Below are positions 45,396 through 56,207 of a DNA stretch of 64,000 bases, in pieces. How positions within the stretch are numbered: the first letter of the stretch is position 1; every line of letters begins with the position of its first letter. This stretch comes from Zeaxanthinibacter sp. PT1. GTDB taxonomy: Bacteria; Bacteroidota; Bacteroidia; Flavobacteriales; Flavobacteriaceae. Made by a program: the position numbers and the translations under genes. The notes under the pieces were generated by a model. That model did no database searches and was not told where the DNA came from. It worked only from the letters and a program-made list of their open reading frames with translations. The DNA lies in contig NZ_JAQPCN010000001.1 in assembly GCF_028464225.1 (NCBI RefSeq), positions 744,001-808,000 of the forward strand, read 5' to 3'.

Positions 45396-47453
45396 TCAAA
45401 GTTTTACGTTGTCAACCTGAAAAGGCTCGCTCTTGCCACAGCCCCTGAATATTCCCATGACCATTTTCTCATAACTGCTTAGTGTCGGGTTAAAATCCTG
45501 GTATATAAAAACTTCATTCCCATATTGAAATGTGTTTTCTTTTGAAAAGGTGAAATCCCATCCATCAAAACCATGCTCAATGCGCTCCGGGGGTAATTGT
45601 TCCTTTTCCGACTCCAAGGGAAAAGCGTGAAAAAACATCCTGCACCCAAAAAGGTTTTCTACCTGCCCCCCTTTATACCGAAACCGAAGGTATATCCTTG
45701 CCTCGTTTTCAAATGGAGTGGTAATCACCTCGGTAAGGACCAAGTCCTCACGGATTAGCTTGGAACCTGAAAAGTGAATGGCTGAACTTTGATTATCATA
45801 AAGTTCCAAAAATGCTTTGTACTGTTTGTTTTCTTCCGGATTGTTATAGAATACGAAGTATTTACCAAATTGTTTATTCCTGTTAAAGGTCTTGGGCAGC
45901 CCATAGGTAGTCAACTGTTTATTATTTCCCATCTCGGTAACTAAAATAACATCATCGGATCTCAAGGTATCGTAGACTTTGTTGAGTTCAGTTGTCAGGT
46001 TGAATCCATTGGTTTCTGGAAATGAAGGCAATTGTAACATCTTACTGTAGCCTAATTCTTCTTTGTCCGCCTCAACATCAATTAGTACTAGTCTCTGCCT
46101 GTCAGACTGCTTAACACTCCTAACAGCTTCCATTATATTTTCTTTAGAACTCGGAAATATTTTAGTGAACATATTGTTGGAAAACAGGAATATTGGCAAG
46201 AGCAATACCAAAAAAAATATGCCAATTACCCATTTACCACCATTATTTTCCCGGTACCAGTTGGTTTGACGAATATGGTTGCGAATGATATCAATAAACA
46301 CCCCGGTAAGCATAACTAAAAATGGAAGAAATGGAAGTATATTCCGGTCTATATACACCCGTTGTTTAACTATGGCCCATACGGTAAGCAGGAATACCAA
46401 TAGTAATGCTCCCCAGGTAAATCGCTCCTTCTTATCTGCCCACTTTAAACCGAAAAAACAAATCGCCGGGAACAGGAATAGTAGCCCCCCTAGTGAGGGT
46501 ATAAGCTCTCGGTATACACCCCTCAGGTTATAAAGCTTATAATTCTCTACTATAACACCCTTATTCCCAGTGGCATATTGCCAAAAATTAGAGAAATAGT
46601 CGTGGATGATTTTGCCAAATACTTCTTTCCCGGCAAATAGATCCCAGTTTATCAACCCGAAAAACAACAGGGATGTCAATAGTAGAGTAATCAAACTTTT
46701 AAGACGTTTCTCCAGCCCTTTAAACTGCAGAACCATTTGAATGGTTATTAAGAGGAGAATGAATAGGCATGAAAATTTTAGTGAAATTGTCAAAGCAAAT
46801 AATAGTCCCCCCAGGCTGATAATGAACCAGCTGGGCCTGGGGTTTTCCCTGATGTATAGGTAATACCACAGCAACAGGTTTATCATGGAGAGCAATAATG
46901 GTTCTATATAGAACACGGAGCGTTGTTCCAGGAATAGAGTATTGATCCCCACCAGGGTAACCACCATGAACATAGCGGTAGTGTACTTTTTCCGCCATAA
47001 ATAAATCACTAGTGGGATAAAGGTGATAAACATGAAGATCACCGCCTGCATTTTGAGGTAGTGGTGAAAATAACGCAGGTTAGGATCCTGCATATTGGCA
47101 GCAAGTTGACTACTACGTGTTTGGTAATTTTCAACCAAGTAATTGTAACCGGGATAGTCCCAGCTTTCCACATAAATATTACCTCCCATATGCCCGATCA
47201 TACCCACCAAAGCACCTGGATAGAACAGGTAGGTAAATAATCGAGGGCCATTTAAAGCCCTGTATACCGTATTTTCGGGAGTATATTTTGGGTGAACCGT
47301 AGAGATCGTGAAATACTCGTCTACCGTGAAATTATCAATATGGTTCTTGTTATAGTTCAGCTGAAATAGAACTGTCGTCAGAAATAGTAATCCCAGGGCA
47401 AGAATCAGGGTGAATTTCTTGCTTATAAAATTTAAAAATGGTCGATCTGTCAT
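45396..47453 (-). CDS. Large GT-C type membrane glycosyltransferase
   Basis: 685 residues. About eleven or twelve membrane helices in the first 430 residues, with the first periplasmic loop holding an acidic motif (NFTVDEYFTIS) as in the ArnT/PMT superfamily. A soluble periplasmic domain of about 250 residues follows (beta-rich; DGWDFTFSKENTF). Such enzymes use polyprenyl-phosphate sugars as donors on the periplasmic side. The gene lies 4 nt after the kinase fusion. Donor and acceptor unknown. Confidence 0.75.
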   Translation of the reverse strand: MTDRPFLNFISKKFTLILALGLLFLTTVLFQLNYNKNHIDNFTVDEYFTISTVHPKYTPENTVYRALNGPRLFTYLFYPGALVGMIGHMGGNIYVESWDYPGYNYLVENYQTRSSQLAANMQDPNLRYFHHYLKMQAVIFMFITFIPLVIYLWRKKYTTAMFMVVTLVGINTLFLEQRSVFYIEPLLLSMINLLLWYYLYIRENPRPSWFIISLGGLLFALTISLKFSCLFILLLITIQMVLQFKGLEKRLKSLITLLLTSLLFFGLINWDLFAGKEVFGKIIHDYFSNFWQYATGNKGVIVENYKLYNLRGVYRELIPSLGGLLFLFPAICFFGLKWADKKERFTWGALLLVFLLTVWAIVKQRVYIDRNILPFLPFLVMLTGVFIDIIRNHIRQTNWYRENNGGKWVIGIFFLVLLLPIFLFSNNMFTKIFPSSKENIMEAVRSVKQSDRQRLVLIDVEADKEELGYSKMLQLPSFPETNGFNLTTELNKVYDTLRSDDVILVTEMGNNKQLTTYGLPKTFNRNKQFGKYFVFYNNPEENKQYKAFLELYDNQSSAIHFSGSKLIREDLVLTEVITTPFENEARIYLRFRYKGGQVENLFGCRMFFHAFPLESEKEQLPPERIEHGFDGWDFTFSKENTFQYGNEVFIYQDFNPTLSSYEKMVMGIFRGCGKSEPFQVDNVKL

Positions 47454-47457
47454 AAAT

Positions 47458-49554
47458 TCAAGGATTATCGGCTTTGGCTAGGATACAATAGATAAAGAAT
47501 AACTGTAAGAAGCCGTTGAGATCTTCCTTTATAATTTCTTTATCAAATAACTCATTCATATCATCGACAAACAACAACATCAGCCTTTCCACTTGTTCCT
47601 TACTCATCCTGCCCCGTACATTAAGCGTCTGGCAATCCGTCTCGTACTCATGCTCTAGAATAAGGGTTGATTGTAAACCTATGGCTTCGACCAAATAGTT
47701 GATATCTATATTCGTGTCTAATTCTATTTTAAGCCCGAGTTCCGGAACTTCTTCTGCCTCCAGTGGCGGCACCTCGGCTAAGGGGTAAAAGCGTAGTCTT
47801 ATATCTGAAAACGATGCTTGGGACCGGATATATTTCTCGGAATCCTCTTCCCGCATTCTCAGCTGCTCTATTACTTTCTCCTTGGTGTATCCCCTCTTTG
47901 CAATATCCCGTTTAAGTTTCCAGTATAACCTCAAATCTTCCTCGGGCTCCACAAAGACTTTGAGATCAAAAAGATTTCTCTTGGCGGCGATGTAGAATGG
48001 ATGCAGACCTTCAAAAATAACGAGCTTCTGGGGGTGTATCTTGAAGGGTTCGGTAAACTTTCCCGTTCCGTGATCATAGAGCCTTCTTCTTATTGACTTC
48101 CCGGTTCTTAACAACTTTAGTTGCTTAATATCTTCGTGTAGATGATTCGCTTTCGGGGATAAATGCGTCAAATCATTCCACCGGTCATGACCTCGTTCCC
48201 AACGATGCATATCATCTCCCCTTATTATAGTAACCTGTGATTTGCCGAAAAGTGCTGTTAGCAATTCTGTCAGGGTAGACTTCCCTACACCCGAGTCTCC
48301 CCCTATCCCTACCAGGAAGGGCTTGGTGCGTAATTTCTTATTGATGTTTTTACCGATACCCGCCTTTAATATCCATATCACATTAAGAACCAGAACGGTC
48401 TGTAATAAGGTGAAAGATAAATTTACCAATAGAGCCGGTTCAACAATTCCCCATTTCATTAGCTCCTCATAAATGGAAAATCCACGTTCGGTCCAAAGAA
48501 ATACATAGCCATAGTCTGATGTTGGCAGCAAGCCAAAAAATAACAGGAAAGCAAATTGTAAGGCCAGGACCGGGATATAGGTGAGTTTCTGTTCCTTAAT
48601 GTTGAAATATATAAGAAATGGCAGGATCCAAAAATACCAGCCTGGTTGGGGAGGGATAAACAATAATAAAGTGGCAAAGGAGAATCCGATAAACATCACA
48701 AAAAGATCCTTACTGAATCTCCTGAACCTGCTTGCCACCGCAAGAATAATAAGGTATACGGCAGGGATGAGATAGAATTGCAACTGGCTCAGAGTGGTAA
48801 TGCCTGCACTCCACACCTTGGATTGTTCCTGGTTGTGATACACCATGAGCCTGTACGAATCGTTAGTGAGGAAGGGTAGGCTCGGAATAAGAAAAGTAAG
48901 TCCCATTATAGAGAGTGCTACCAGTATTCTCATCACCCTTCCCTTTGGCTCAGCCTTCCAAAGAAAGAGGAGTACAAAGGGAATCGTTAATACCAGGTTG
49001 GTTTTGGTGGCTAACCCCAGGCCTAGTACCGCAGCTGATAACCAGAAGCGGTTTTTGATCAGCAAATATGTCGCCGCGAACAGGAATGCGATAGGAATAA
49101 CATCAAACTGACCATGAATATATGAGATATAGATCAGGACAGGCGACCACCAATAATACCTTAGAAGTTTCTCGTTCTTCTGCCCGAGCCAGCGAGACAG
49201 GATCAGGAGCACCAAAGTATCCGCTAGGAGCAGCGGTATCCTGATAAAAAATGGAGAAAGTGCTGCAAGCCCACCTCCAAGTGCACTTAAAACGTACAGC
49301 ATGAGTGGAGGATATGGAAATGCATCGGTGATCCCTTGCTCAAAAAAATAGGTGTATGGATCCTGTAATCCTGAGGAAAGAAAATAAGTAACAAACGGAA
49401 TAAAGGCATTAGACATCAGCCTCCCCGCAAATAGGAAAGACAGCACAATTTTAAACAACAGTCCCCAGGCATAGAGGGGATGCTGAAGGATACTGAGCTT
49501 AAATTTTCCTTCTTTATCCCGAAAAATTCTGTCTAGCTTGCTATTTATTGCCAT
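47458..49554 (-). CDS. Fusion of a GT-C membrane domain and a phosphoribulokinase-like kinase
   Basis: 698 residues in two halves. Residues 1-400 are a membrane domain of about ten helices with the GT87/mannosyltransferase-like motif HGQFDVIPIAF and GLATKTNLVLTIPFVLLFL. Residues 410-640 are a P-loop kinase: GIGGDSGVGKST (417-427), DDMHRWERGHDRW, THLSPKANHLHED, IFEGLHPFY and RDIAKRGYTKEKVIEQ. These are the landmarks of the phosphoribulokinase/uridine kinase family. The last 60 residues are an extra helical tail. No frameshift joins the halves. I know of no described enzyme with this architecture. Confidence 0.85.
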   Translation of the reverse strand: MAINSKLDRIFRDKEGKFKLSILQHPLYAWGLLFKIVLSFLFAGRLMSNAFIPFVTYFLSSGLQDPYTYFFEQGITDAFPYPPLMLYVLSALGGGLAALSPFFIRIPLLLADTLVLLILSRWLGQKNEKLLRYYWWSPVLIYISYIHGQFDVIPIAFLFAATYLLIKNRFWLSAAVLGLGLATKTNLVLTIPFVLLFLWKAEPKGRVMRILVALSIMGLTFLIPSLPFLTNDSYRLMVYHNQEQSKVWSAGITTLSQLQFYLIPAVYLIILAVASRFRRFSKDLFVMFIGFSFATLLLFIPPQPGWYFWILPFLIYFNIKEQKLTYIPVLALQFAFLLFFGLLPTSDYGYVFLWTERGFSIYEELMKWGIVEPALLVNLSFTLLQTVLVLNVIWILKAGIGKNINKKLRTKPFLVGIGGDSGVGKSTLTELLTALFGKSQVTIIRGDDMHRWERGHDRWNDLTHLSPKANHLHEDIKQLKLLRTGKSIRRRLYDHGTGKFTEPFKIHPQKLVIFEGLHPFYIAAKRNLFDLKVFVEPEEDLRLYWKLKRDIAKRGYTKEKVIEQLRMREEDSEKYIRSQASFSDIRLRFYPLAEVPPLEAEEVPELGLKIELDTNIDINYLVEAIGLQSTLILEHEYETDCQTLNVRGRMSKEQVERLMLLFVDDMNELFDKEIIKEDLNGFLQLFFIYCILAKADNP

Positions 49555-50135
49555 CGCTTCACGTTATAGTGTTTGGTACAAATAGCGTCTAGGTGCAATT
49601 CTCTTTGTTCGAGCAAAGCCTTGTACTGTTCTATTTCTTCATCTCTACCTTGTAATTCAGGAGATACCAGGCAAAGTTTAAACCCTAAATCCTTAAGACG
49701 ATCATGCGTTTTCTTTTCAAGGGGTAGCTTGGTAAAACAATCGATCCAAACCCAATTCACCTTCCCTGCCATGCTTTCTATGGTATCCAGGCCTTCAAAC
49801 TCAGAATACCTCAGCGCGATCCTATCTTCCCCAAGGGAAACAAGGGAACGTATCATGGGAAATGAACTATCGAGAAAAAAATACCTGGAAATTCCATAAT
49901 TTGAAAGCAACTCAAGGATTTTGTGCTCTATCCGTTCACTTTTAATATTTAGTATCATAGTACCATGGTGGTACTCCTTTAAATAGGTTTCGAAATCCTC
50001 GCCTTTCAAAAATGGATCATGGGCTAAATGGATACTGCCATCTTCACTATCTCGCAGATCAATTTCAACCCCAAAATTCTCAGGGAGTTCTCGAAGTTCT
50101 TCAAGGGTATTCACCCGGTGAGCGATATACTCCAT
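49545..50135 (-). CDS. GDPD-like phosphodiesterase
   Basis: 196 residues, a short PI-PLC-like TIM barrel. The glycerophosphodiesterase catalytic set is present: His6-Arg7 (IAHRVNTLEEL), Glu24 and Asp26 (VEIDLRD), His39 (LAHDPF). It has no signal peptide, so it is cytoplasmic, and is shorter than usual GDPDs (about 240). It overlaps the kinase fusion by 10 nt. It may cleave or edit a phosphodiester intermediate of the pathway; inference only. Confidence 0.75.
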   Translation of the reverse strand: MEYIAHRVNTLEELRELPENFGVEIDLRDSEDGSIHLAHDPFLKGEDFETYLKEYHHGTMILNIKSERIEHKILELLSNYGISRYFFLDSSFPMIRSLVSLGEDRIALRYSEFEGLDTIESMAGKVNWVWIDCFTKLPLEKKTHDRLKDLGFKLCLVSPELQGRDEEIEQYKALLEQRELHLDAICTKHYNVKRWQ

Positions 50136-50140
50136 TCTTG

Positions 50141-50836
50141 CTATAGGGTTTTTTTAAGTTTTCGGCTGAACTCGATCGTCCTTTTAATGAATTTCTTTTT
50201 CGCGCTCAATCCAGTATTCCAGCTGGAGGAACCGTGAATACGTTCGGGAAAGACAACATCAAACCTGATAAGCTTAATCTTTTTTTTACGGGCCAGGTAT
50301 AAGGCATAAAGATCCAGTGAAAAGTCATGGGGGGGCTGCTCCCAGCTCTCATAAAAAGAGCGATGAAATATGTTCGGCTGGGCATTGATATCATACAATC
50401 TTTCACCCAGGTAAACCGTTTCAAAGAAACTCATCCCCGTAGTGAAAAACTGGTCAAAGATAGGTCTGCCCTTGCGCTTCCCTTTAACATAGATGTTTTC
50501 TTCCTCCTGTTCTTCGATAATATTAAGAGCCCGGATTACATCCCCGGGATCTGTTTGCATATCAGCGTGGGTCCAACCAATATAAGTGCCCTTTGCAGCC
50601 TCAAGACCGGAAAGTATCCCAAAGCCGTAGCCTTTATTTTGTGTAACGTGGACCATCCTGGCAAACGAAAAATTCGGTAATACGGTTTTAAGAACTGCTT
50701 CTGAATTATCTGTTGAACCATTATTCACCATTAGGACTTCTATGTCCTTCCTATCGATCACTTTTGAAAATGCATCCAGCAATAGTGGAATATTTGCACT
50801 TTCGTTATAGCAGGGTATTACTATAGATAATTTCAT
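50141..50836 (-). CDS. Dpm/GtrB-like family 2 glycosyltransferase
   Basis: 231 residues, GT-A: MKLSIVIPCYNESANIPLLL, VNNGSTDNS, GLEAAKGTYIGWTHADMQTD (metal site HADMQ in place of DaDlq). No C-terminal membrane helices, as in dolichol-phosphate mannose synthase. It would load a sugar or similar group on undecaprenyl phosphate. Its 4-nt overlap with gtrA supports a GtrA/GtrB pair. Confidence 0.85.
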   Translation of the reverse strand: MKLSIVIPCYNESANIPLLLDAFSKVIDRKDIEVLMVNNGSTDNSEAVLKTVLPNFSFARMVHVTQNKGYGFGILSGLEAAKGTYIGWTHADMQTDPGDVIRALNIIEEQEEENIYVKGKRKGRPIFDQFFTTGMSFFETVYLGERLYDINAQPNIFHRSFYESWEQPPHDFSLDLYALYLARKKKIKLIRFDVVFPERIHGSSSWNTGLSAKKKFIKRTIEFSRKLKKTL

Positions 50837-51222
50837 ATAACACTAGTTTTAAAGACCCAAAATTTCTGCCCGATGAAGTTGAGCACGGCACTCAGCCCGG
50901 TGGCGCAGAGAAAAGCAAAGATGATGCTTTCAAACCATATGAGGCATAAGTGATTGGTCCCGATATTCAACCCCAGGGTGATGCCGTAAAGTATAAGAAA
51001 CTTCATCAACTGCTTCCCTGAAAATTCTTTAGCCTCAAAGGTCCAATATTTATTCAGAACAAAAGCAACCATGGTTCCGGTTAAAAATGAAACTCCCTTG
51101 GCAATATTGGGTCCCAAATAGGGGTATAAGGCCAAGTAAACCAAATAATCAACCAGGACCGCTGTTACCCCTGAAACACCAAATTTCAAGAGTTGTTTCC
51201 GAGTTGTTGTACTTACCGCCAT
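50833..51222 (-). CDS. GtrA family membrane protein
   Basis: 129 residues with four membrane helices (about 12-31, 38-55, 77-95, 100-120) and the family start LLKFGVSGVTAVLVDYLVYL. GtrA proteins are thought to flip polyprenyl-phosphate sugars made by a GtrB-type transferase, here the next gene. Overlaps the nucleotidyltransferase gene by 10 nt. Confidence 0.9.
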   Translation of the reverse strand: MAVSTTTRKQLLKFGVSGVTAVLVDYLVYLALYPYLGPNIAKGVSFLTGTMVAFVLNKYWTFEAKEFSGKQLMKFLILYGITLGLNIGTNHLCLIWFESIIFAFLCATGLSAVLNFIGQKFWVFKTSVI

Positions 51223-52862
51223 GGCTGAGGGAATTGTGAGTAAGATTGATCCAGTGCTTTTTGGTCTTCTTCAGCAACCATAGGATCCTTCTGAAGCGTA
51301 TAAGGGTGCCATTTCACTTTGTGAAAGAAACTCTGCCAGTACTTATATGTCAAGTAATCATCCGGTGTTCCCCATCCCAGGTAGTGATCCACCTCAAACG
51401 CCTTAACCTTCAGACCCATTTCTACTAATTCACCAACACAACTATCCACGTAAAATTCGCCATTTATACGTTGATTCTTAGCTTTTAAATTTTTTAATGC
51501 TCCAGTGAAATACGCTGCTTTTCGAAAATAAAATGTTCCTACTATGGCGTGATCCCCTGAAGGGTTATCGCTTACAGGAACCTTTACGCTTACTCCTTGG
51601 ACCAAGCCAGAATCATCGGTTTTCACCCAGCCGTACATTTGTGGGTTCCTGGCACTGCTGGGATGTCCTCTGAAGGTCCATACTATAGCATCTACTTTTT
51701 CATCTTCCAATAGTTCCTGATAGCTTTCCTGGTTATATATAACACCGTTGTCGCAGGCACCGATCAACAGCGGGAGTTGATCATCTTGTTCTTGCAATCC
51801 CAGGGCGCAGGTACTCGCCTGCCCGTCCGTGACCTGGTTTAATGGCACTATCCGAGCCTCCGGGTAAAATTCCCGAAGACTGCGTTCCAGGGGGTATTGT
51901 TCTAAATGTTCCTCAAGGCAAACGAAGGTATTACGCCCGGAGGCCGGGAGATAATTTGCAGCCTGAACAATCATGGGTTTGCCTCCAACTTCGATCAGCG
52001 GTTTTGGATCAGCATACCCTGCCTGCGTAAAACGGCTACCTCTGCCCGCCAACGGAATAAGGTTAAGACAGCCATCATCAAGAGGTTCTTTTACCGCCTT
52101 CCAGTCTGCGATTGCCCTGAAATAGTCCGAGAATCCAAGATACTCCTCAACATCCTGCGGCGTACCCCATTGTAACATGTGCTGTACGTCATAAATAGAC
52201 ACTTTAAGCCCGTCCTGCACCAACAAATTATAAATCAGGCTCACATAGAATTCCCCTTTCAGGTCAATTCCCTTTTCTATAAGTTCGGAAAAGTATTTCT
52301 TCACATAGCTGCCTTTCCGGAAATAATAGGTCCCCATAGATGCATACTCCTGCATCCTATTATCGGTAAACGGCTCTTTTTCCTTAATCTCCAACATCCA
52401 CTGTTTATCATCCCGCATAAATGCATAATTGGTAGTTCCCAGCATATGGGGATGAAAACCTTTGTAAGCGGGAACTGCACCGTCGGCTTTGCGGTCGCGC
52501 GTGTGTTTTAAAAAATCACTATAATCCCAATAGCATGAAAAGTCGCAATAATTGACAATGACCTCTTCCTCATCTGCAAGGAGGTCTGCAACCTGTAAAA
52601 CAGCGTAGACCGGGCCTTTTTTATGGGGTGGAATTTCCCGGATTACCCCTCCTGGAGCTATCCTCATCAGTACCTCCCTCATGTTGGTCTCCTGCAGGTG
52701 CTTACTGTTGCAGATAAATATAAAGTCGGTTTCCCCGGGAAACATTTTAACCACATGCTCTATGATTGGCATCCCGTCTATTTCTATCAAGGGTTTCGGG
52801 GTGGTATAACCGGCTGCAACAAAACGATTGCCCATTCCGGACATGGGAATTACTATTTTCAT
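51213..52862 (-). CDS. Tandem double nucleotidyltransferase
   Basis: 549 residues composed of two homologous sugar-nucleotidyltransferase domains. Domain 1 (1-250): IPMSGMGNRFVAAGYTTPKP, Asp107 in NYCDF, WGTPQDVEEY near 232. Domain 2 (266-530): IPLAGRGSRFTQAGYADPKP, Asp371 in GACDNG, WGTPDDYLTY near its end. Both keep the Gly-rich loop, the PKPLIE lysine and a metal Asp, so both could be active. These enzymes activate sugar phosphates as NDP-sugars. A 4-nt overlap joins it to the membrane protein gene upstream. Confidence 0.85.
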   Translation of the reverse strand: MKIVIPMSGMGNRFVAAGYTTPKPLIEIDGMPIIEHVVKMFPGETDFIFICNSKHLQETNMREVLMRIAPGGVIREIPPHKKGPVYAVLQVADLLADEEEVIVNYCDFSCYWDYSDFLKHTRDRKADGAVPAYKGFHPHMLGTTNYAFMRDDKQWMLEIKEKEPFTDNRMQEYASMGTYYFRKGSYVKKYFSELIEKGIDLKGEFYVSLIYNLLVQDGLKVSIYDVQHMLQWGTPQDVEEYLGFSDYFRAIADWKAVKEPLDDGCLNLIPLAGRGSRFTQAGYADPKPLIEVGGKPMIVQAANYLPASGRNTFVCLEEHLEQYPLERSLREFYPEARIVPLNQVTDGQASTCALGLQEQDDQLPLLIGACDNGVIYNQESYQELLEDEKVDAIVWTFRGHPSSARNPQMYGWVKTDDSGLVQGVSVKVPVSDNPSGDHAIVGTFYFRKAAYFTGALKNLKAKNQRINGEFYVDSCVGELVEMGLKVKAFEVDHYLGWGTPDDYLTYKYWQSFFHKVKWHPYTLQKDPMVAEEDQKALDQSYSQFPQPWR

Positions 52863-54457
52863 TGAATTGTTTGAATTGAAAAAATTTTCAGGGACCCATC
52901 CTCCCAGACAGGTTTTATATTTTTAAAGGCTTGGTCATAATTGGTTTCAATGACGATATAATCTATTGAATACAGGCCTGCTAATGACTGCCACTTTTTT
53001 GGTGTTATTTCTCGAAAATACGCTAACCCCTGTTCACCTTCTTGACGACTTCCATAAAAGGATTTATATCGATTACTATGTTCTTCTATTTTTGATTCTG
53101 CAAAAGGAAATTCTTTGGAAACAACAACGTTCCTTTTCCCAATTAATCGAATGTCGGTATTGAGCGCATCCGAATATGCTTGAAAAACCGCGTCAGGTGG
53201 GGTATTTCTCACAAAAGTAAAAAAATTCGACTTCCTTTGAGATATCTGAGTAAACGGATGGTCAAGATAAATGATGCTCGATATAAATAAACTGACAAAA
53301 AGGAGTCCTACAATACCTTTAGAAACAGGAGGGATTTCCCAGCTTCTAGGGTTTTTAACAATGTATCCAATCATAATCATCCAGCAGGCAAGTACAGACC
53401 AAAATCCGAATATTGTAAATCTTGATGGCCCTAAATAGGCAATAAGTTTGACTGGAATAATATCTATGAAAAGGTATTGCAGTCCGATAGAAATTACATA
53501 TCCCAAAAAGGCAAGGGAAGCAGAAATAGCTAATTTGTAAAAACGTCTGTACAACCCATAAAATAATGGAATAAGTATTAACAGTGCTATTATAGAGAAT
53601 ATAGATTCCCATGGGAAAAATACATTGCTATAAGAAGGCACATGGTAATGCCATGGATGTCTCTCTCTTACGTAATATTCAATAAACAATTCGGTGTTCA
53701 ATGTAGCGGAGCTCTTAAACATCACGGTAACAACTATTCCTGAAAGTAAAACTGCTCCGAATAGTTCCATCATCTTGCCGTAGCAATTTTTAATCCAAGG
53801 CATTAAGAATATTCCGTAGAAACAAGCGGTTAAAAGCCCCATAACAGGGTGGAGCAGAGTACCTAATACAATTAACGAAAGATAAAGCCAACGACCAGCC
53901 AGCCTACGCTCCCACAGTATTATTCCTATAAAACTGACAAACATACTGAGGTTAGCTGGATATAATGAGGCATTATACGGAAGCCAATTGCCAACCGCCA
54001 AAATCCTATTAAGATCTTTTGACAACACTACAATCGCAAGTAATATAGCTAAATAAGGCGCCAAATGAAATACCTTCTTAGTTGGTAAGAATCTTTGTAG
54101 AAATACGATGATTACACCAAAAATTACCGGGGGGTATAGGGTTAGCATAAGTACCTTTATGATAAAGAGCCAAGAATACCATGGTAGATTGAACAACAAA
54201 GGAGGGAGCGCAACAAAGTATCCGTATATCCATCGTGGATTTTTTTCAAAAGATGCCTGGGTGAAAAAATCATTTACAAGTAAATCGGAATTGAATAGAT
54301 GAATCCAGAATGGCATCATATCCTGCTCAGCCCAGGTATAAGCCGTGGGGTTTTGAAGAAAAGTAAGAAACCCAATGAATCCAAGGAAAAAAAGATAAGT
54401 GTTCCATAGGTTTTTATCTTTAAACCATGCCATTTTTCCGGCCATTCTATTCATCAT
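52859..54457 (-). CDS. Multi-helix membrane protein, DUF6798-like
   Basis: 532 residues with about eleven membrane helices, early loop AYTWAEQDMMPFWIHLF with acidic residues, and a soluble C-terminal part after residue 420 (FVRNTPPDAVFQAYSDALNT; SIDYIVIETNYD) as in DUF6798/GT-C proteins. Likely a periplasmic glycosyl or polyol transferase using a lipid-phosphate donor, but not proved. Visibly AT-richer than the conserved genes before 43 kb. Confidence 0.7.
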   Translation of the reverse strand: MMNRMAGKMAWFKDKNLWNTYLFFLGFIGFLTFLQNPTAYTWAEQDMMPFWIHLFNSDLLVNDFFTQASFEKNPRWIYGYFVALPPLLFNLPWYSWLFIIKVLMLTLYPPVIFGVIIVFLQRFLPTKKVFHLAPYLAILLAIVVLSKDLNRILAVGNWLPYNASLYPANLSMFVSFIGIILWERRLAGRWLYLSLIVLGTLLHPVMGLLTACFYGIFLMPWIKNCYGKMMELFGAVLLSGIVVTVMFKSSATLNTELFIEYYVRERHPWHYHVPSYSNVFFPWESIFSIIALLILIPLFYGLYRRFYKLAISASLAFLGYVISIGLQYLFIDIIPVKLIAYLGPSRFTIFGFWSVLACWMIMIGYIVKNPRSWEIPPVSKGIVGLLFVSLFISSIIYLDHPFTQISQRKSNFFTFVRNTPPDAVFQAYSDALNTDIRLIGKRNVVVSKEFPFAESKIEEHSNRYKSFYGSRQEGEQGLAYFREITPKKWQSLAGLYSIDYIVIETNYDQAFKNIKPVWEDGSLKIFSIQTIQ

Positions 54458-55527
54458 CTTTGTTGTCGATATTTTTCAGCTTCCCAATTCCCCAAGTACT
54501 TAATTTCTTCATGTGACAGATGAACCAGGTTGTCTTTAAGATAGTCAGCTATAATCATGTTGTTTTTAAGGACATCTTCTATCATTTTTGCCTTTTTCAA
54601 GTCGGCAGCTAAAATATAAAGTTGATCCTTTATTAAGATTAGTTTAGGGGGCTCATGATACTTCTCGGCAAAGATTATTAGTGCATTAGCATCCAAATGC
54701 TCAGAGACCAAGATTTTATACCCACAGAAAACATAGCCGTCCGGTGAGAAAGGCGGTTCTTCTGCAAGCTCTGGGCGATTCTTTAGCAATTCAATTATAG
54801 TAGCATCTTCTGAATGATAGACGGATAACCTGTGGTTAAAGGCCTCTTCATAAATAGAAGAAATTTCGGAAACACGACGATAGCGGGCAAGATCCAATCC
54901 CGAGATGTTTTCAGCTGACAACACCACCTCTTCCATCAGTTCCTTGACTTCATCAAACTTATCTGAACTAATAATCAGACCATGATTCTGTAAAAAAATC
55001 ACTTTTGGTAAAATTCCGTACTGAAGTACATACTCTTCTAATTGATCACGTAGAAGTAATGCCAATTCTATACCTGGGGTCTCATAAGGAATCAACAGAC
55101 TACGGGGGTATAATTGTGATGTTGCTTCTTCCCAGTTTTTACTGCTTGTCAAAACGTTAACGGCTATAGAATGCACATGGCAGGTATAACGATATAACAA
55201 GGCGTGGAGGTAGGTCTCAATAGAAGGTCTATCTTGACCAAGAACTATTGATTTAGCCAATAACTCACCGGCTCTTTTATCTTTATCCCTTTTATCTTCG
55301 GTATTCTTCACAGAAGGGTGATTTAACACGTTGAGCACTGCTGCCGTTTTAACCCCTGTGTAACCTCTACCCTCTTGCAATTCAGATAGTAAATATCCTG
55401 AGGCTTTAATGAGCATGGTTTCCCCATATTTAACAGAAGTATTGCCGCCTCCGGCCTGCACTAGGTCAAATCTTTCTCCCGCATAGGCCGACATCCTGAT
55501 CAATTTGTCAATTGCTTCCTGCTCCAT
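54454..55527 (-). CDS. Class II aldolase/adducin family protein
   Basis: 357 residues. N-terminal class II aldolase domain (about 1-215): GGGNTSVKYG, PSIETYLHALL with Glu104 and His108, HVHS with His117/His119, and NHG at 181-183, so the metal and acid-base residues are kept. The N-terminal style resembles the rhamnulose-1-phosphate aldolase/alcohol dehydrogenase proteins, but the dehydrogenase half is absent and replaced by about 140 residues of unknown type. It may form or cleave a phosphorylated keto-sugar. Overlaps by one base with the HAD gene. Confidence 0.82.
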   Translation of the reverse strand: MEQEAIDKLIRMSAYAGERFDLVQAGGGNTSVKYGETMLIKASGYLLSELQEGRGYTGVKTAAVLNVLNHPSVKNTEDKRDKDKRAGELLAKSIVLGQDRPSIETYLHALLYRYTCHVHSIAVNVLTSSKNWEEATSQLYPRSLLIPYETPGIELALLLRDQLEEYVLQYGILPKVIFLQNHGLIISSDKFDEVKELMEEVVLSAENISGLDLARYRRVSEISSIYEEAFNHRLSVYHSEDATIIELLKNRPELAEEPPFSPDGYVFCGYKILVSEHLDANALIIFAEKYHEPPKLILIKDQLYILAADLKKAKMIEDVLKNNMIIADYLKDNLVHLSHEEIKYLGNWEAEKYRQQR

Positions 55528-56207
55528 TATAATTGAATTTCAATAAAAGATCTAATTTCCTTAACAACTGCTGGAACGTTCCTTTTCTCAGCATTCCTGT
55601 TCAGCCAAACTGCTCTAATATTCATTGCCATAGCTCCTTCTATATCCTTCTCCCAACTATCTCCTATCATTAGGGCCTCGGTTGAATTACAGTTGAGTTT
55701 CTGTAAAGCTCGCGTAAACATGTAGGGGTGTGGCTTTTCAATGCCTACTTCTTCACTACTCACCATAAAGTCTAAGATTTCAGTGAGTTTTAACCGTTTT
55801 AATTTCCGGTATTGAATATGTGCCGTTAGGTCTGTTAATAAGCATATTCTGCCTCCTTTAGCCTTAACCATTTCTAACCACTCCATTACTCCCTCATCCA
55901 ATACTAGGTGATTAAGAAATGTATCCCAGTAACAGTCGTAAAAATAAAGTCCATGGTGTAAAGAAGCCCCTTCTATTCTTTCCAACATTTTTTGAAAATA
56001 AAGAAGGCGGTTGTGTGATGCGGCCTGGGAAGGCAGTTCTAAATGGGTCTGTTTTCTAGCCAAAGTGAAGACTGATTCAGCCGCTTTCCGATTTAAGTCA
56101 TAAAGTCTATGAAATTCATCGTAAACCGTATTCATTGCCGCTTTGTGAGGAACGTCATAAGCATACAGTGTGTTATCCAGGTCGAGAATAATGTTATTTT
56201 GCTTCAT
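55527..56207 (-). CDS. HAD-superfamily phosphatase (YjjG-like)
   Basis: 226 residues. Motif I DLDNTLY (Asp9 nucleophile, Asp11), a helical cap (about 17-85), motif II LLTDLT, motif III Lys in IEKPHPYMF, motif IV ALMIGDSWEKDIEGA. Typical small-molecule phosphatase removing phosphate from a sugar or nucleotide. It lies between GT4 (14-nt overlap) and the aldolase, so it probably acts in the same pathway. Confidence 0.88.
   Translation of the reverse strand: MKQNNIILDLDNTLYAYDVPHKAAMNTVYDEFHRLYDLNRKAAESVFTLARKQTHLELPSQAASHNRLLYFQKMLERIEGASLHHGLYFYDCYWDTFLNHLVLDEGVMEWLEMVKAKGGRICLLTDLTAHIQYRKLKRLKLTEILDFMVSSEEVGIEKPHPYMFTRALQKLNCNSTEALMIGDSWEKDIEGAMAMNIRAVWLNRNAEKRNVPAVVKEIRSFIEIQL

Follow-up and report, generated by a model that had tools for sequence, protein, structure and literature searches.

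A membrane-bound phosphoribulokinase-type kinase fused to a GT-C domain in a mobile, putative polyprenyl-sugar cassette of Bacteroidota and Pseudomonadota

The window analyzed here is a stretch of 64,000 nucleotides from Zeaxanthinibacter sp. PT1 (GCF_028464225.1, contig NZ_JAQPCN010000001.1, positions 744,001 to 808,000), whose genome comprises 3.34 Mb in 9 contigs and which belongs to the same genus as Zeaxanthinibacter enoshimensis. On the minus strand of the window lies a cassette of about 9 kb, whose genes overlap one another and which includes a gene for a membrane protein with a kinase attached. The features are as follows.

45396-47453, minus: another large membrane protein, encoded immediately downstream of the fusion and found in flavobacterial loci only; GT-C-like, candidate acceptor-specific transferase (putative function)
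47458-49554, minus: fusion protein of 698 aa, GT-C membrane half (aa 1-408) plus phosphoribulokinase half (aa 409-698)
47458-48330, minus: PRK-type kinase half of the fusion, cytosolic; P-loop GDSGVGKST 419-427, D447, H450, R454, Y493, H495, K546, R549, R554
48331-49554, minus: GT-C half of the fusion, 12 TM helices, N-in/C-in; outer-face FPYP 79-82, HGQxD 147-151, K184, GWYxW 305-309; EL1 acid replaced (Asn49)
49545-50135, minus: GDPD-fold phosphodiesterase, 196 aa, with HR, ExD, HD and K motifs retained; 10-base overlap with the fusion
50141-50836, minus: GT2, polyprenyl-phosphate-sugar-synthase-like, without TM helices of its own
50833-51222, minus: GtrA/DPMS-TM membrane protein (PF04138, E=7.7e-22), putative flippase or anchor for the GT2
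51213-52862, minus: two fused sugar-phosphate nucleotidyltransferases, 549 aa, both with GxGxRF...K and both Asp
52859-54457, minus: large variable membrane protein inside the cassette; GT-C-like, candidate acceptor-specific transferase (putative function)
54454-55527, minus: Zn class II aldolase of the ketose-1-phosphate type; N29, S43, G44, S102, E104, H117, H119 and H182 invariant
55527-56207, minus: HAD phosphatase; best NCBIfam match NF053830, RuBP 5-phosphatase (181.5 bits, cut-off 330)

The HAD phosphatase has NF053830, with the RuBP 5-phosphatase of haloarchaea, as its best family by far, yet it stays below the cut-off of that model. In the aldolase, the three Zn-binding His, the catalytic Glu (in place of the Asp of 4-epimerases) and the phosphate-binding N/S/G are all present, the roles of these residues presumably being those of their counterparts in FucA/AraD. 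The two nucleotidyltransferases, fused in the window, are encoded side by side by separate genes in many other loci of Bacteroidota. The small protein of 49545-50135 has no Pfam match of its own, Pfam GDPD being reached by one family member with only E=0.19, while by structure it is a GDPD TIM barrel (Z 17.6, 186-190 residues aligned) with invariant H/ExD/H catalytic motifs, and its plasmid homologues are labelled PI-PLC/GDPD family by PGAP. Two genomes that lack this small gene have, immediately ahead of the two nucleotidyltransferase genes, a gene for a canonical GDPD (PF03009, E=6e-25 and 1.3e-23), which supports the GDPD fold assignment. The two large membrane proteins of the window have no Pfam assignment and possess acids in the first outer loop (DE at 45396-47453, EQD at 52859-54457); homology of the large membrane proteins beside the cassettes to each other or to the fused GT-C half could not be demonstrated.

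A single open reading frame of 698 codons fills positions 47458-49554 exactly, the plus strand there being full of stops. The frame and the motifs quoted in the first-pass annotation of this DNA were all recovered, namely HGQFDVIPIAF at aa 147, GDSGVGKST at 419, HRWERGHDRW at 450, IFEGLHPFY at 513 and RDIAKRGYTKEKV at 549. That annotation had read the product as a membrane GT-C domain joined to a PRK-like kinase in a glycan context; the context is borne out by the neighboring genes, and the architecture by both Pfam and structure comparison. Pfam PRK (PF00485) covers aa 415-590 with E=1.2e-38, above its gathering score, and the N-terminal half draws sub-threshold matches to ALG3 and GT87. In an AlphaFold2 model built on a 25-sequence alignment (pLDDT 82.8), structure comparison recognizes a GT-C fold from about aa 20 to 408, followed by a PRK fold that spans 409-697.

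Aligned with VIA-align, residues 20-413 are closest to GPI mannosyltransferase I (Z 28.9 over 349 residues), followed by ALG3 (27.1), PIG-U (24.9), ALG6 (24.2) and PimE (19.9). The GT87 family (PF09594), formerly suggested as the GT-C relative, reaches 18.1 bits against a gathering score of 25, and PIG-M and ALG3 are nearer by structure. A PDB sequence search with the whole-fusion profile gave at best E=0.04 for this half (GPI mannosyltransferase 1) and a search with the GT-C half alone gave no match, so that the fold assignment rests on the model. From the original description of a ten-helix GT-C domain the fold stands, and the helix count has to be raised to about 12 plus juxtamembrane helices. 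Loop charges fit the positive-inside rule with 12 helices and both termini in the cytosol, and a K/R-rich linker (399-412) lies just ahead of the kinase. From the positive-inside rule and homology, the kinase half is therefore cytosolic and the GT-C pocket lies on the periplasmic face. With the two active sites on opposite membrane faces, direct hand-over between them is ruled out and the kinase product must go via other enzymes; the notion of a sugar phosphorylated locally and entering the glycan directly is thus unsupported in that form.

In PIG-M, the DxD of the first outer loop (EL1) is required and its second Asp is the base, while in PIG-U, which is not a transferase, SSW replaces the DxD (PMC12653191). 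PimE requires D58, and its K195 and W319 sit at the donor phosphate (PMC12041525). The equivalent column of the fusion was set by alignment with free-standing GT-C proteins of the same phylum, whose invariant Asp falls on fusion position 49 in three MAFFT modes. Among 25 fusion sequences this position is E in 13, D in 6, N in 4 (including the PT1 protein), T in 1 and S in 1, and in seven Pseudomonadota members it is Q, T, F, H, H, A and H. The PT1 fusion, with Asn49, has no acidic catalytic residue (DxD/DD/ExD) in this loop, and the initial view of the membrane half as a working transferase is weakened, the canonical catalytic acid not being conserved. A family-wide absence of the first-loop acid was also considered and rejected, because Glu or Asp occupies position 49 in 19 of the 25 Bacteroidota-type members. 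K184, W306, Y81, D112 and D151 are invariant in all aligned fusions; judged by motif context, K184, W306 and Y81 probably correspond to PimE K195, W319 and Y92 at the donor phosphate. As far as the residues tell, the GT-C half has retained donor-side features and not the canonical base, and its transferase activity is doubtful.

Two accounts of this half are possible, and both are held tentatively. It may still be a working transferase that uses D151 (EL2) or D112 as base and moves the sugar made by the cassette onto an acceptor in the periplasm, the fusion then linking the first and last steps of the pathway. The five invariant residues, the open PIG-M-like fold and the acid kept by those 19 members speak for this, whereas PIG-M (PMC12653191) and PimE (PMC12041525) cannot do without the EL1 acid, which in the fusions gives way to N, T or S in 6 of the 25 members and is replaced in all seven of the Pseudomonadota ones, and the same loci hold other large membrane proteins that do have EL1 acids. 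It is equally possible, in our estimate, that the half is non-catalytic like PIG-U and serves as a polyprenyl-phosphate-sugar-binding scaffold or flippase part that keeps the kinase beside GT2/GtrA, the real transferase being the variable large membrane protein, as in gtrABC clusters. Many members have lost the base and kept the donor-side residues, PIG-U with its SSW (PMC12653191) is among the closest folds, most cassettes are accompanied by a large, highly divergent membrane protein, and the linker to the kinase is free of gaps in 25 of 25 sequences; however, the outer-face pocket (FPYP, HGQxD, K184, GWYxW) is strongly conserved, as if selected for catalysis or tight binding, and the channel of PIG-U is closed.

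For the kinase half, the nearest NCBIfam model is the phosphoribulokinase PRK07429 (222.8 bits, just under its cut-off of 236), and the uridine kinase model udk gives 78.8 bits, below its cut-off of 220.3. VIA-align of aa 409-697 yields Z 24.6 with a cyanobacteria-specific PRK, 22.8 with the PRK of M. hungatei, 18-20 with plant PRKs and about 15 with uridine kinases, and Foldseek agrees on the fold. In the M. hungatei enzyme the phosphate of Ru5P is bound by R59, Y98 and H100, and H55, K151 and R154 are the remaining conserved Ru5P/ATP residues (PMC5241800). With a constant offset of +395, fusion H450, R454, Y493, H495, K546 and R549 coincide with H55, R59, Y98, H100, K151 and R154, respectively. 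The catalytic pair of plant PRK is Asp57/His105 (PMC9978339), and D447/H495 of the fusion have the same spacing of 48. The catalytic Asp/His and the Ru5P/ATP-binding residues are invariant in all 25 aligned fusions and in seven further Pseudomonadota members. Since the Ru5P-binding residues are invariant, a phosphorylated ketose is favored over the nucleoside or polyol substrates proposed at first, and a ketose phosphate is the better guess, these residues being no proof of Ru5P itself. Among solved structures, PDB 9qkn, 9qko and 9qkp, released in 2026 as "cyanobacteria-specific PRKs", are the nearest to the kinase half; no paper on the role or substrate of this PRK type was found in the open-access literature.

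That the PRK residues have been re-used for something other than a ketose phosphate, such as a nucleoside, a polyol phosphate or a lipid-linked sugar, appears somewhat unlikely. Glu515 in the Walker-B region is Ser in the Escherichia coli, Azospirillum and Hirschia fusions, W452, W459 and H464 are family-specific and suggest an altered pocket, and the best structural match is that cyanobacterial paralogue for which we found no substrate paper; against this stand the invariance of every Ru5P-binding residue of PRK and the far lower scores of uridine-kinase profiles.

Full-length homologues of the fusion occur in more than 30 genomes of Bacteroidota and Pseudomonadota at about 27-65% identity, fused in every case, and the fusion of the congener Z. 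enoshimensis is 65% identical. When 84,980 species genomes were scanned, 27 loci (34-65% identity) were returned, both halves being covered wherever the contig allows, in Flavobacteriaceae, Cytophagaceae, Mucilaginibacter and other Bacteroidota as well as in two SAR86 genomes and two others that had been binned as Alphaproteobacteria. The presence of the fusion in other Bacteroidota, which the first-pass annotation had advised looking for, was thus found and extends to Pseudomonadota. Three plasmid records, from E. coli, Azospirillum brasilense and Hirschia baltica, carry it too, under the PGAP names "uridine kinase" or "phosphoribulokinase". In the phylum of SAR86 (Pseudomonadota), 5 of 299 sampled genomes encode the full fusion and 4 a free PRK without a GT-C part. 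No relative was found on viral contigs. Homologues with the halves in separate genes, named earlier as the finding that would speak for a sequencing join, did not turn up: among the relatives found, no locus has the two halves as neighboring genes, unfused kinase matches are free PRKs with no GT-C partner, and every relative with the kinase motif of the fusion is fused. Between the last membrane helix and the P-loop, the 25 aligned fusions show no indels. A mirror-tree comparison of the two halves gave a distance correlation of r=0.94 (0 of 2000 permutations), and their trees have 19 of 22 splits in common with no supported conflict, so the GT-C and kinase halves have a history in common. The fusion is a real and old bacterial protein and not a sequencing join; chance origin is excluded by its recurrence in the 27 named loci, the three plasmid records and the 5 of 299 sampled Pseudomonadota genomes. 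That two genes were merged by a frameshift, a wrong assembly join or accidental read-through can practically be dismissed, given full-length fusions in unrelated genomes and phyla and the concordant trees of the halves. The component folds are already known, and in the open-access literature we came across no account of either the fusion or the cassette, in line with the original remark that no enzyme of this architecture had been described.

Seven or eight other genes travel with the fusion, from marine Bacteroidota to the plasmid of E. coli. Flavobacteria retain the gene order of the window; other Bacteroidota and SAR86 have GDPD-HAD-GtrA-fusion-aldolase-NT-NT-GT2 (NT, nucleotidyltransferase) or close variants, Azospirillum has aldolase-NTx2-GtrA-GT2-GDPD-fusion-HAD, and E. 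coli has NTx2-GtrA-GT2-GDPD-fusion-HAD-aldolase followed by a 586 aa membrane protein, with IS26 on either side. The E. coli cassette is present in 2 of 5,426 genomes, and GT2-GDPD-fusion-HAD recurs in four more Pseudomonadota loci. The nucleotidyltransferase pair is found in 7 of 7 fusion genomes, including those where the genes are scattered, and the HAD phosphatase in 6 of 6, even where dispersed; among 395 genomes of the phylum, only the two with the fusion have a nucleotidyltransferase pair scoring above 300 bits. Cassette members co-occur strictly where tested. GtrA was rejected as an invariant part, as several flavobacterial loci have no recognizable GtrA beside the fusion.

Our preferred reading, with a probability of about 0.5, is that the fusion faces both sides of the membrane and combines a kinase with donor handling, as part of a dedicated cassette for the synthesis of a polyprenyl-phosphate-linked sugar out of a pentulose phosphate. 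It draws on the fold, the active-site residues, the sidedness (positive-inside rule plus homology), the synteny and the co-occurrence, from which we infer the order of steps, a Ru5P-like substrate and a polyprenyl-phosphate sugar as ligand of the GT-C half. The cytosolic PRK-type half would phosphorylate ribulose-5-phosphate or a closely similar ketose phosphate at C1, the HAD phosphatase would strip the distal phosphate to leave a ketose-1-phosphate, and the class II aldolase would cleave or rebuild the latter. One or both nucleotidyltransferases would then activate the product of the aldolase stage, the GT2/GtrA pair would load it onto polyprenyl phosphate, and the periplasmic PIG-M/ALG3-like half would bind this polyprenyl-phosphate sugar on the outer face. 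In haloarchaea, a HAD/aldolase pair encoded by adjacent genes has been proven to convert RuBP via Ru1P to DHAP and glycolaldehyde (PMC9700705). By analogy, a PRK-type kinase placed before HAD and aldolase would form a chemically coherent series of ketose-5-phosphate, 1,5-bisphosphate, 1-phosphate and aldol step, and the intact nucleotidyltransferases, GT2 and GtrA suggest a nucleotide-activated, polyprenyl-linked product.

Several points stand against this pathway. The HAD phosphatase scores well under the RuBP-phosphatase cut-off; a ketose-1-phosphate, with C2 as its anomeric carbon, is no ordinary glycosyl-donor precursor, which leaves a gap between the aldolase product and the nucleotidyltransferases; the scheme does not account for what the GDPD-fold enzyme does or why two nucleotidyltransferases are required; and in a freshwater clade (L047, L050) the fusion and aldolase genes lie away from the other cassette genes. 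The strongest form of the proposal, in which a full RuBP-type route of PRK-type kinase, RuBP-type phosphatase and ketose-1-phosphate aldolase builds a glycan instead of fixing carbon, with the kinase linked across the membrane to a GT-C domain that lacks the base and deals with the lipid-linked product, is quite unlikely. Rubisco is absent from the PT1 genome, for which reason a Calvin-cycle role was rejected, and a fructofuranose-capsule route was dropped, as nothing links the cassette to it.

Compared with archaeal and cyanobacterial phosphoribulokinase (PF00485), the fusion shares the fold across its 290-aa half, the P-loop, the catalytic Asp-His and the Ru5P-binding residues, but here the kinase sits on a membrane domain, in a glycan locus of a host without Rubisco, and under the PRK07429 cut-off. 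With PIG-M/Gpi14 (GT50) and ALG3 (GT58) it has in common the 12-TM GT-C fold, the cytosolic termini and the outer-face donor-phosphate residues, and it differs in being bacterial, lacking the essential DxD and having a kinase attached, with no sequence homology detectable beyond E ~0.04. PIG-U, a subunit of the GPI transamidase, is likewise a GT-C fold without the EL1 catalytic acids; unlike the fusion, which strictly keeps the donor-side residues, it has a closed channel and belongs to a protein complex. The gtrABC serotype-conversion clusters also combine GtrA, a GT2 that makes a polyprenyl-phosphate sugar and a variable large membrane transferase, and are mobile, whereas the present cassette adds sugar-making enzymes (kinase, HAD, aldolase, two nucleotidyltransferases and the GDPD-fold enzyme). 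The haloarchaeal non-carboxylating pentose bisphosphate pathway (PMC9700705) has the same neighborhood of a RuBP 5-phosphatase-type HAD and a FucA-type ketose-1-phosphate aldolase, but is catabolic and fed by R15P isomerase, while the cassette has a PRK-type kinase and glycan-building enzymes. We rate the cassette as a gtr-like polyprenyl-sugar cassette with pentulose-phosphate chemistry of its own and a kinase/GT-C fusion.

Phosphoribulokinase is regarded as a carbon-fixation enzyme, kinases of its kind being known above all from carbon fixation in photosynthesis. In the present case, the entire active site is retained in a membrane protein of a bacterium without Rubisco, within a mobile surface-glycan cassette. 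The cassette predicts a so far unrecognized activated sugar and a new use of pentulose (bis)phosphates, and is small enough for the pathway to be rebuilt from purified enzymes, while a GT-C domain without the canonical base offers a test case for the GT-C mechanism. If the RuBP-type glycan route were true, the fusion would represent a previously undescribed type of lipid-sugar carrier or transferase coupled to a kinase.

Some variants of the cassette deserve mention. In one freshwater clade of Bacteroidota (L047, L049, L050, L051, L057), the genes for fusion and aldolase are separated from the remaining cassette, with an aminopeptidase P gene before them where the flank was examined, and the NT-NT-GT2 block is found elsewhere in the genomes checked. 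Three capsule loci of other Bacteroidota (L095, L096, L097) hold a diverged HAD and nucleotidyltransferase without the kinase fusion, two of them with a GDPD-like gene and one with an APH-type kinase, and resemble sister cassettes that differ in their front end. The E. coli plasmids (L102 and L105) come from human stool and frog-farm sediment; the whole cassette, 100% identical in the two isolates, lies between IS26 copies, as is fully seen in strain ES3, and adjoins a broken AIDA-repeat autotransporter gene. For the E. coli "uridine kinase" WP_338707020 (L102:9456), the annotated start omits the first membrane helix; similarity to the fusion already sets in 60 bases upstream, and translation therefore probably starts earlier than annotated.
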